Assembly: GCF_000517445.1 (NCBI RefSeq)
Contig: NZ_CP006965.1
Coordinates: forward strand, 1,092,681-1,156,680
DNA from: Thermococcus paralvinellae
GTDB taxonomy: Archaea > Methanobacteriota_B > Thermococci > Thermococcales > Thermococcaceae
DNA length: 64,000 nucleotides
Direction of reading: 5' to 3'
The notes under the pieces: generated by a model
The model's input: only the letters and a program-made list of their open reading frames with translations
Told to the model about the DNA's origin: nothing
Databases searched by the model: none
Position numbers and translations under genes: made by a program
Shown here: one piece after another, positions 6,998 to 30,388 of the stretch
Numbering within the stretch: the first letter of the stretch is position 1
Layout: each line of letters starts with the position of its first letter

Positions 6998-8023
6998 TCA
7001 CCTTTTTATAAACCAGCTCTCCAAAGTTGACTGCTTTCCAGCCTTCATTGCTTTCTTCAGCCTTTCTAGGCCATTCTTTACCCTTTCCTCACTGAAGTCA
7101 TGCTCATCACAGAGGAACTTTAAAATGCCCTCCTCATCTGGCATCTTCCAGACAAGCTTGTAATCATCCGTGACAGGTGGATTTAGGAAGAACTCCTTAA
7201 TTGCATATAAATCAACGTCGCTCATCTTTTGATACTTCTTTAGGGGATCTTTTGAATACTTGACTATTTCCAGAGCTTTCTTTGGACCAACCCCCTTGAT
7301 TCCTCCTGGATTATAATCAGTTCCAACCAGAATAGCGAGTTCTATGAGCTTCTCCCTGTCAATCTTCAGTTCTTTTAAAACTTCCTCCAAAACAATTAGC
7401 TCTGGCTTCACTTCAACATAAACATCTTTTCCAGGAAGCTTTCTTCTGCCTGTTATTGTCAAATTCCTAACAAGCCTTGGTGCTCCAAACAAAAGTGAGT
7501 CATAATCCTGAGAAGCTGAAGCCCAGACTTTACCTTTTGATGCCATGTAGGCCGCTTGAGCCTCACCTTCACTTGGAGCTTGCACCCATGGAATGCCCAT
7601 AAGGTCTAACAACTTTTTAGCATCCTCTATCAGCTGCTCATTCACCCGTGAAGCTCTCTGGGCGTATTTCTTTGCTTCCTCCAAGTCTCCTCTTGCTAAC
7701 GCCTCCTGCCACTTTTCCTCAGCTTCTTCCCTCGCTTCGGCTCTCTTTTCAAGCTCCTTCTTCTTGAATTCTGGTGGCTTTCCATCAAATACATAAGCTG
7801 GTTTTATTCCCACTTCCATGAGATTTATCGTCCTGTAGAACAGCCCAGAGAGGTGTGAAGTTATTCTTCCTTTAGAGTCCATGAGAGGTGTCCCATCTCT
7901 TTGTCTGATGATAGAGAGGAACTGATAAATTGCATTCAGGGCATCGATGGCTATTTTCCTTCCGTTTAGGTTTTCAATCTCAATTTCCTTCCTTGGAATG
8001 AGCTCGCCTATCTGAACTCCCAT
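6998..8023 (-). CDS. fen: Flap endonuclease 1 (FEN-1)
   Basis: 341 aa. Structure-specific nuclease that removes 5' flaps in Okazaki-fragment maturation and repair. The N-region starts [14 protein letters not shown]; metal-binding acidic residues lie in the N motif ([18 protein letters not shown]) and I motif ([24 protein letters not shown]), and a helix-hairpin-helix is visible at [20 protein letters not shown]. The C-terminal [10 protein letters not shown] is a PCNA-interacting (PIP-like) tail. The ATG overlaps the stop of the upstream PsiE-like gene (TGATG), so the two are translationally coupled. Confidence 0.97.
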
Positions 8024-8448
8024 CACTCCTCACCTATCCTAATGTATAGATACCCTAACACAAATATAAGTCCTGCGATTGCAAAAAGCTTTAGGGCATC
8101 CAATTCCTTGAAATCAGAAGCAACGACAAGCTTTTGAATAAGGGCAACTATTCCAACCTCCAATATGTGGGTTAGGCTAACACGGTGCTGCCTTAAGTAA
8201 ATTATCAGGATTCTGTAAGTCTCTATGAGGATTATCGTAACGAGGACATTTGCAATCAATAGCTTAGGCTCAGCAACTTTGTATGTGAGCTTGAAGTTCA
8301 AATAAATGGAATACACTGTAAGGTAGAGTATGAAAAACAAGAATACCATAACCACCATATCAAAGCATATCTCAAGGGTCTTTCTAAAGGCCTTATGAAC
8401 CTGCGTATATTGGGCGACTTTCTCTTCTTCCATCTTTGCCATTTTCAT
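8023..8448 (-). CDS. PsiE-like (phosphate-starvation-inducible E family) membrane protein
   Basis: About 141 aa. After a short charged N-terminus ([16 protein letters not shown]) there are four hydrophobic segments: [56 protein letters not shown] and [16 protein letters not shown], matching the four-helix PsiE family of unknown function. Start codons at 8448, 8442 and 8433 are all possible; none has a strong ribosome site because the C/D box sRNA occupies the region just upstream. The gene overlaps FEN-1 by TGATG. The frame extending to 8604 runs through the sRNA and is not believed. Confidence 0.75.
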
Positions 8449-8505
8449 CAGCCTACCGGTGTGCTCATCACCCCTCAGATGAGGGGAAGGGTCATCATCA
8501 CTTTT
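8444..8505 (-). ncRNA. C/D box guide sRNA (predicted)
   Basis: On the minus strand all four boxes are present in order: C box GTGATGA (8501-8495), D' CTGA (8478-8475), C' GTGATGA (8471-8465), D CTGA (8451-8448). The D' guide interval is 16 nt and the D guide interval is 13 nt, close to the 12-nt norm of archaeal sRNAs. Such RNAs bind L7Ae, Nop5 and fibrillarin and direct 2'-O-methylation five nt upstream of D/D'. An AT-rich TATA-like stretch (TTTTAAAATTAAA) is about 20-25 nt upstream. The 3' end abuts the PsiE-like start, so the RNA may be processed from that transcript. Confidence 0.75.
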
Positions 8506-8781
8506 ATTTTCCCAGTTTAATTTTAAAACATTGCTCTCCAAATTAGCGTATGAGCATGTTGCCCAAAGCGATTTTGGAAAGCTACTGATGACCTGCAAAT
8601 GCACATAAATTTTGATTACTCTTCAAAGTTTTCAATTCTTGATTTTCATGCATTTTGAAATTTGGAAACTTTTTTTAATACTTACTTTTTTCAAAATAAA
8701 TTTTACTATTATAAAACACAAAATTTAAATAACCTAATGTCATAACAGTTATGAAAGAATAACTCTTCAGGTGACATGGTC
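8506..8781. other. Non-coding interval with promoters and a 13-bp palindrome
   Basis: No credible gene. On the minus side it contains the TATA-like element of the C/D box RNA. On the plus side AATTTAAAT (8722-8730) is a TATA box for the broken membrane-protein gene; the predicted start site near 8751 falls inside the perfect palindrome CATAAC-A-GTTATG (8741-8753), a possible operator. Confidence 0.5.
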
Positions 8782-29269: not shown

Positions 29270-30280
29270 ATGAAGAAACCCAAGGTGTTCATCACCAGAA
29301 AAATTCCAGAGACTGGAATCAATATGATCAAACAGTATTATGAGGTAGAAGTCTGGAGAGATGAAAATGAGCCCCCGAGAGACGTCCTGCTTGAGAAAGT
29401 TAGAAATGTTGATGCCTTAGTAACTCTGCTGAGCGACAAAATTGACAGAGAAATTTTTGACAATGCTCCAAGGCTTAAAATCATTGCCCAATACGCTGTC
29501 GGCTATGACAACATTGACATTGAAGAGGCTACAAAAAGAGGAATTTATGTCACCAATACGCCAGACGTTTTAACCGAAGCTACAGCGGATTTCGCTTGGA
29601 CTTTGCTTTTAGCAACAGCAAGGCATTTAGTTGATGCAGATAAATTTGTGAGGAGTGTGGAATGGAAGAAAAGGGGAGTTGCATGGCATCCGCTCATGTA
29701 TCTCGGCTATGATGTTTATGGGAAGACAATCGGAATAATAGGATTTGGAAGAATAGGGCAGGCGATAGCGAGAAGGGCTAAAGGCTTTAACATGAGAATC
29801 CTTTATTATTCTCGCACAAGAAAGCCTGAAAAAGAGAGGGAACTTGGAGCTGAGTTTAAACCGTTAGATGAGCTGCTTAGGGAGAGCGACTTCGTGGTTT
29901 TAGCAGTTCCATTAACAAATGAAACCTACCATATGATAAACGAGGAGAAGCTTAAGCTCATGAAGCCAACGGCAATACTTGTCAATATTGCAAGAGGAAA
30001 GGTTGTTGATACAAAAGCCTTGATTAAAGCTCTCGAAGAGGGCTGGATTGCTGGAGCGGGCTTAGATGTCTTTGAAGAAGAACCTTACTATAATGAGGAG
30101 CTTTTCAAGATGAAGAATGTAACTCTCGCTCCCCACATAGGCAGTGCAACTTATGGAGCAAGATATGCAATGGCAGAGCTTGTTGCAAGGAATTTGATAG
30201 CCTTCGCTAAAGGTGAAGTTCCGTCGACACTTGTGAATAGAGAAGTGCTGAATGTTAGGAAGCCTGGATTCGGCCGATGA
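29270..30280 (+). CDS. gyaR: Glyoxylate reductase (GyaR)
   Basis: 336 aa. D-2-hydroxyacid dehydrogenase family, reducing glyoxylate (and hydroxypyruvate) with NAD(P)H; closely matches the characterised Thermococcus litoralis enzyme in motifs and length. NAD-binding [13 protein letters not shown], catalytic Arg in [13 protein letters not shown], Glu in [13 protein letters not shown], and His in [11 protein letters not shown]. The start at 29270 follows GGTGATACC; the longer frame from 29225 is leader. Its stop codon lies inside the possible C box of a guide RNA. Confidence 0.95.
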
Positions 30281-30329
30281 GGAGCTGGATCCGACCTGAG
30301 GGGTGATGATGGAGGTACTGTCCGAGGCT
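30272..30329 (+). ncRNA. Possible C/D box guide sRNA overlapping the gyaR stop
   Basis: A good D'/C' core is visible: CTGA (30296-30299) and GTGATGA (30303-30309). The outer boxes are degenerate: C as CCGATGA (30274-30280), which contains the gyaR stop, and D as CCGA (30322-30325), placed exactly 12 nt after C'. GCC (30273-30275) can pair with GGC (30326-30328) as a terminal stem. The interval C to D' is 15 nt. Less certain than the neighbour because of the degenerate outer boxes. Confidence 0.45.
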
Positions 30330-30388
30330 TCAGATGATGATCCCACCCTTGGCTGATGTGATGATGAAGCCTCGTGGTTCTGACACCC
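30330..30388 (+). ncRNA. C/D box guide sRNA (predicted)
   Basis: A textbook layout: C ATGATGA (30334-30340), 12-nt guide, D' CTGA (30353-30356), C' ATGATGA (30361-30367), 12-nt guide, D CTGA (30380-30383). Both guide intervals have the length of archaeal guides. Guide sequences are TCCCACCCTTGG and AGCCTCGTGGTT; the RNA targets were not identified by eye. No separate promoter is obvious, so it may be processed from the gyaR 3' end together with the candidate just upstream. Confidence 0.8.

Follow-up and report, generated by a model that had tools for sequence, protein, structure and literature searches.

Guide RNAs at archaeal gene boundaries

Archaeal C/D box sRNAs bind L7Ae, Nop5 and fibrillarin and direct 2'-O-methylation to the N+5 position; their guides span about 12 nt between the boxes. 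Gaspin 2000 is cited for 46 sRNAs (in the available part of PMC7994747). For six species, the same source reports that 7% of archaeal C/D genes overlap the 5' end of an ORF, which lowered expression of a downstream gene (Tripp et al. 2017, via PMC7994747), and that 25% overlap an ORF 3' end, with the stop codon in box C in almost half (PMC7994747). In T. kodakarensis, 11 potential snoRNAs lie within 5'-UTRs and 12 in 5' coding regions (PMC4247193, available text). Guide RNAs are known to occur at gene starts, although only as a minority. Another leader element is the k-turn of l7ae, a simple k-turn that masks the Shine-Dalgarno sequence of this gene and through which L7Ae represses its own mRNA (PMC5539422, accessible part).

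The window, the whole 64,000-nucleotide stretch of Thermococcus paralvinellae DNA that was analysed, carries such an element directly before a psiE-like gene and fen1. The kind of element is already known and Rfam detects this sRNA, which corrects the preliminary description, according to which few automated annotations include such RNAs. The matching family RF00095 (snoPyro_CD, a Pyrococcus C/D box sRNA) has the same four boxes, length and spacing; the window sRNA lies a mere 2 bits above its threshold, and the family consensus appears to leave the target unfixed. The T. kodakarensis 5'-end snoRNAs belong to the same archaeal family and show the same arrangement. The 5'-overlapping archaeal C/D genes are similar in that the final base of box D also belongs to an ATG here, with a conserved start 5 nt further on. 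They differ in that a true overlap exists here only if psiE starts at 8448, and in that the ortholog stands ahead of one PsiE-family gene in 20 genomes but 3' of a diverged family member in the other 32.

The literature search found no publication joining at least three of PsiE, flap endonuclease, sRNA and Thermococc-; the ortholog could be contained in the 2014 T. kodakarensis supplement or in Gaspin 2000. The available text of PMC9014305 holds nothing on the psiE-fen1 sRNA locus, apart from one unrelated passage.

Anatomy of the sRNA

On the minus strand, the sequence runs GTGATGA (8501-8495), 16 nt, CTGA (8478-8475), GGG, GTGATGA (8471-8465), 13 nt and CTGA (8451-8448). Direct reading thus agrees with the two GTGATGA and two CTGA boxes, with spacers of 16 and 13 nt, that had been described at 8505-8444. 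A second, overlapping C box, ATGATGA at 8498-8492, lies 3 nt inside the first GTGATGA, and the model UGAUGA of RF00095 is aligned onto 8497-8492. With box C at 8498-8492, both guides are 13 nt long; the guide lengths first given, 16 and 13 nt, are kept for the second guide and revised for the first.

The RF00095 match scores 47.0 bits against a gathering threshold of 45, with an E-value of 1.1e-6 for the 64-kb window. Nine more C/D families match below their own cut-offs at a lax threshold: sR4 at 8424-8472 and the remaining eight on the RF00095 stretch. The pattern TGATGA-N10-16-CTGA-N3-RTGATGA-N10-14-CTGA has one match in 64 kb, both strands included, and none in 100 dinucleotide-preserving shuffles. 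The genome also contains a fibrillarin gene (PF01269, 341.2 bits). Both guide cores, CCTTCCCCTC in the D' guide and CGGTAGG in the D guide, are identical across the 13 sRNAs chosen for alignment A2, a statement that describes this choice, made without the degenerate L066/G035 copy; in that copy the D' core is degenerate.

Judging by these features, the minus-strand element at 8501-8448 is very probably a canonical double-guide archaeal C/D box sRNA, whose C/D and C'/D' motifs L7Ae, Nop5 and fibrillarin would bind. The identity first proposed holds on three lines of evidence: the Rfam match, conservation beside a PsiE-family gene (52/94 genomes) and an 11-bp guide:23S match in N+5 geometry. The features of the locus are collected in Table 1.

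Table 1. Features of the sRNA-psiE-fen1 locus and further putative C/D box sRNAs of the window (window positions unless stated)
Feature	Position	Strand	Basis
Whole C/D box sRNA (predicted)	8448-8501	-	Rfam RF00095 match 8445-8501; refound by model R1, which includes it, at genome positions 1101128-1101181
Box C, ATGATGA	8492-8498	-	Sequence; RF00095 alignment; TGATGA invariant, first base A/G (13 chosen sRNAs)
D' guide, CCCTTCCCCTCAT	8479-8491	-	11 contiguous Watson-Crick pairs with own 23S 2731-2741
Box D', CTGA	8475-8478	-	Sequence; CCGA/CGGA in some relatives
Box C', GTGATGA	8465-8471	-	Sequence; most aligned rows the same, GTGAGGA or GTGACGA in two
D guide, GCACACCGGTAGG	8452-8464	-	8 Watson-Crick pairs and one G-U with 23S UCUACCGGU
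Box D, CTGA	8448-8451	-	Sequence; identical in 13 chosen sRNAs
TATA box TTTAAA, predicted promoter of the sRNA, probably also serving psiE-fen1	8522-8527	-	Alignment, 20 loci
psiE-like gene	8023-8442	-	Conserved start ATG 8442, in-frame alternative 8448; Pfam PsiE 42.8 bits
fen1, flap endonuclease-1	6998-8026	-	ORF from GTG 8026, likely start ATG 8023; NCBIfam TIGR03674 (fen_arch) 526.6 bits
sR49-like sRNA	30273-30327	+	48.6 bits, just below gathering threshold 50
sR48	30328-30385	+	48.3 bits, gathering threshold 40

Conservation in relatives

The sequence-only model R1, built from the 13 chosen sRNAs, was run on 94 Thermococcaceae genomes. It has matches at E ≤ 0.001 in 58 genomes, among which its 13 model rows and their near copies match by construction, and none in the other 36. 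The 72 matches form two well-separated groups: 52 are strong (E ≤ 2.7e-8), each in a different genome, and the remaining 20 are weaker (E ≥ 2.9e-6). A PsiE-family gene lies within 400 nt on the same strand in 52/52 strong matches vs 0/20 weaker ones. By genus label, strong matches occur in 7/7 genomes of g1, 0/3 of g2, 9/9 of g3, 28/61 of g4, 7/13 of g5 and 1/1 of g6. PsiE is detected in 77 of the 94 genomes, 25 of which have no strong sRNA match beside it, and the 17 genomes without PsiE have no strong match at all. Because 36/94 genomes give no match and 25/77 PsiE genomes have no strong neighbouring sRNA, the sRNA is dispensable; some weak copies were possibly missed, because a large genome search applies stricter filters. 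A class-wide search gained no genome beyond Thermococcaceae (58/115, with fewer candidates scored per genome).

The boxes are conserved in relatives, the opposite of what had been named as evidence against an sRNA. Across 20 loci with the gene order of the window (type A, see below), mean column identity is highest in the sRNA (0.90), followed by the first 100 coding bases (0.82) and the upstream region (0.63).

In an Archaeoglobaceae MAG (L032 458, plus strand), a C/D-like motif with different guides lies about 2.5 kb upstream of FEN-1.

Two gene arrangements

The strong matches fall into two arrangements. In type A (20 genomes, including T. paralvinellae), the sRNA stands directly before a PsiE gene 81-100% identical to that of the window. 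In type B (32 genomes), it lies 3' of a PsiE-family gene that is just 23-41% identical to that of the window. The placement before a PsiE-like/FEN-1 pair is confirmed by Pfam PsiE, NCBIfam fen_arch and a FEN-1 start motif that follows PsiE in 28 of 30 PsiE loci, a subset of all PsiE matches; the motif was not found in L072 and L074.

Fourteen of the 32 type-B loci were read (9 g3, 5 g4). FEN-1 starts 9-12 nt after box D in all nine g3 loci; in eight of them the PsiE frame closes 35-68 nt ahead of box C, and in L091 it stays open through the sRNA. In all five g4 loci (L074, L075, L097, L102 and L103; the genomes of the last two are also those of L070 and L071), the stop codon of the diverged PsiE lies inside box C, and FEN-1 follows 46-50 nt onward in four, not being found in L074. 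Orthologous copies of a single sRNA thus adjoin the start of a gene in some genomes and contain a stop codon in others, which may be the part that specialists find new. On a FEN-1 tree of 28 rows with PsiE-type labels, two A/B label changes are needed and the well-supported branches force one. The deep forks of this tree are weak, and either type may have come first.

The sRNAs of the same five g4 loci have D' and C' boxes that deviate from the consensus.

Predicted guide targets in ribosomal RNA

Both guides were compared with the organism's own 16S, 23S and 5S rRNAs and 44 tRNAs. The best fit of the D' guide lies 5' of the sarcin-ricin loop of 23S rRNA and has G2734 at N+5; shuffled guides equal it in 16/400 cases against rRNAs and tRNAs and in 24/500 against rRNAs. 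The best fit of the D guide, with C2786 at N+5, is weaker and, by itself, ordinary, being equalled by 120/400 shuffles (rRNAs and tRNAs) and 120/500 (rRNAs). The D octamer UCUACCGG occurs twice near the sarcin-ricin loop, giving a second possible site with C2713 at N+5. Both guides matching equally well and lying at most 60 nt apart, a limit set after the result, occurred in none of 400 shuffle pairs. The sarcin-ricin sequence AGUACGAGAGGA lies between G2734 and C2786. None of the 44 tRNAs scanned beats 23S for either guide.

Target patterns had been proposed for both guides. The one for the D' guide is borne out over TGAGGGGAAGG, which has three exact places in the genome: 23S, the complement in the sRNA and 1488864-1488874. 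The one for the D guide is not: the full target CCTACCGGTGTGC has its sole exact place at the sRNA locus, and its rRNA pairing amounts to 9 pairs. Allowing 2 mismatches adds nine places, for a total of 10 vs 7 for the backward control.

The D' guide is predicted to direct 2'-O-methylation at G2734 of 23S rRNA, and the D guide probably directs methylation at C2786, or at C2713. G2734 and C2786 presumably correspond to about 2640 and 2691 in E. coli; counting back from the sarcin-ricin loop, where the organism's own 23S is one base longer, gives 2639 for the same G. A survey of seven species places the 23S methylation hotspots in helices 35, 35a, 61, 68-71 and 90-93 (PMC4644070, available part), and the available text of that source has no mention of Pyrococcus, Thermococc-, sarcin, overlap, 2640 or 2691.

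For relatives, 23S was sought in 18 genomes (with no match in G007 and G093), and about 260 nt around the sarcin-ricin loop of 12 that carry both the sRNA and a 23S match, related and not independent, entered the pairing scan. In 11 of these 12 genomes, an uninterrupted run of 10-12 pairs joins the D' guide to the same part of 23S; in two, the run includes one G-U. In G035 the D' guide is degenerate and the pairing fails. In G080, G084, G026 and G034, the guide lies one base nearer to D', and N+5 shifts to the next G.

Lineages may differ in their D target: in the five g4 genomes tested, which have UCUACCGGAGG at the first site, the D guide pairs there better (two genomes) or equally well (three). 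G008, which has no sRNA match, has both D-target octamers altered in each of its two 23S copies and the D' target kept, whereas three other genomes without an sRNA match (G030, G082 and G085) have both octamers unchanged. A tie between the octamer change in G008 and the absence of the sRNA is a hint, no more.

The two 23S rRNA genes of G008 lie in separate places (L117 and L123); each of the other 15 matched genomes has one.

Predicted transcript and start codon of psiE

The TATA motif TTTAAA lies at -29 to -24 from box C in the type-A alignment. Five of its columns have an identity of 1.00 and the sixth 0.95, against an upstream mean of 0.63 (20 loci). In T. kodakarensis, transcription starts at a median of 23 bp past the TATA box (PMC4247193, available text). 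Position and spacing together predict a start near 8499, at the 5' end of the sRNA. As psiE starts 5 nt past box D, a single primary transcript most likely serves as the psiE-fen1 mRNA too. Co-transcription, with the sRNA as the 5' leader of that mRNA, is accordingly put forward as probable on the layout of the locus, at a good deal less confidence than the sRNA itself; a further promoter inside the sRNA is possible.

The psiE start most consistent with the type-A loci is ATG 8442. This codon is common to all 20, with proteins starting MAKM, MARM, MTKM or MTRM, and it follows box D at a distance of 5 nt in all but one locus, where the distance is 6 nt. Thirteen of the 20 loci have an in-frame ATG two codons earlier (8448 here); in the other seven it is absent or lies in another frame. 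In 14/20, the frame is closed by a stop 3, 8, 12 or 17 codons upstream of the shared ATG. The closed upstream frame and the near-constant gap favour 8442 as the start, with 8448 as the alternative. The final A of box D (8448) is the A of the ATG at 8448-8446, so the overlap of box D with possible psiE starts that had been described applies to that codon; the shared start at 8442 is abutted only. If psiE starts at 8442, the sRNA and psiE abut, with no overlap of the kind reported in the available part of PMC7994747.

Shine-Dalgarno sequences were scored against the organism's own 16S 3' end. The best match in the 20 nt before psiE is 4 nt (TGAT) in all 20 type-A loci, a length reached at 341 of 1000 random window positions. 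The FEN-1 starts of the same loci have matches of 5-6 nt. The fen1 gene of the window, which overlaps the end of psiE, has its Shine-Dalgarno AGGTGA inside psiE, 6 nt before the fen1 ATG. GGTGAT is also present in the C' box, but 24 nt before 8442. In G008 (L059 1440-1510), the one type-A relative without an sRNA match, type-A PsiE and FEN-1 occur and GGTGAT lies 4 nt before the psiE ATG; a 6-nt match is reached at 18/1000 random positions. The missing psiE Shine-Dalgarno is weak evidence, because three other putative starts in the window have matches of 8, 4 and 0 nt, because a ribosome-binding sequence is present on only about half of T. kodakarensis mRNAs (PMC4247193, available text) and because G008 is a single case. 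The lack of a strong Shine-Dalgarno before psiE is not unusual for the Thermococcus group.

Possible consequences for psiE-fen1 expression

The existence of the RNA, promoter use, methylation, co-transcription and an effect on translation are predictions from the DNA, and the following model is built on them. Transcription would start at the 5' end of the sRNA, and one primary transcript would cover the sRNA and psiE-fen1. Ribonucleoprotein (RNP) assembly and trimming would release the sRNA, with psiE left almost leaderless; alternatively, the attached RNP would hinder psiE translation. In either case fen1 would keep its own Shine-Dalgarno. It is plausible, at lower confidence than co-transcription, that RNA processing interferes with psiE translation in this way.

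The closest competitor, which differs in this last step only, is a true C/D sRNA without effect on psiE, the latter being translated from a read-through or separate message. The TATA motif is placed right for the sRNA itself, the boxes alone suffice for maturation with the flanks irrelevant (PMC7994747, available part), and an absent Shine-Dalgarno is common in the Thermococcus group. Box D, however, lies just 5 nt from the start, and a 5' overlap lowered the expression of a downstream gene in another case (Tripp et al. 2017, as summarised in the available part of PMC7994747). This reading can be entertained tentatively, as a serious but weaker contender.

Interference may also be extended to a transcript with two fates, in which excision of the C/D RNP leaves psiE leaderless or dead and escape from excision leads to translation. 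Output of psiE-fen1 would then depend on free L7Ae, Nop5 and fibrillarin and hence on the pace of ribosome production. Selection would keep the guide RNA in the fen1 operon, next to the start codon of one PsiE-family gene or enclosing the stop codon of another. This extension is speculative and, on balance, unlikely.

The main role of the element might instead be cis-regulatory, as a k-turn in the psiE-fen1 leader that L7Ae binds to repress translation, and not that of a working guide. Its position in the predicted leader and the near-constant 5-nt gap to psiE fit such a role; so does the l7ae precedent, with a k-turn site in a 5' leader beside a start codon, as is predicted here (PMC5539422, accessible part), and some 5'-end-proximal predicted snoRNAs of T. 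kodakarensis may be cis-regulatory (PMC4247193, available text). Here, in contrast to the simple k-turn that masks a Shine-Dalgarno, a full guide RNA stands before a start with a Shine-Dalgarno match of at most 4 nt. A regulator would have no need for two guides, a C'/D' motif or a kept core matching 23S, and 32 genomes carry the ortholog on the 3' side of a diverged PsiE-family gene and not before a type-A psiE. A mainly regulatory role in place of guiding is very improbable.

That the stretch is coding, with a psiE ORF starting at GTG 8604 and the boxes a by-product of codons, can be discounted: the frame is open from 8604 here, and for 28 to 66 codons upstream in 6/20 loci, but the stops in the other 14, the keeping of boxes and guides and not of the frame, and the RNA score in Rfam all speak against it. 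The GTG 8604 start, giving a 193-aa ORF through the sRNA, was set aside after comparison of the 20 type-A loci.

If the reading of the sRNA as guide RNA and probable psiE leader is right, the locus provides a natural series for the fate of genes whose leader is a guide RNA: 20 genomes have the sRNA ahead of psiE, 32 have it 3' of a diverged PsiE-family gene, and G008 has a Shine-Dalgarno before psiE in its place. The locus also names a testable pair of 23S methylations around the sarcin-ricin loop. Knockouts exist in T. kodakarensis, and some Thermococcales can be altered genetically (PMC9014305, available text).

Other putative C/D box sRNAs in the window

A tandem pair of putative C/D box sRNAs, sR49-like and sR48, lies at 30273-30385 on the plus strand (Table 1). 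The sR49-like member holds the stop codon of an ORF ending at 30280, presumably a hydroxyacid dehydrogenase gene, and thus represents a 3' overlap.
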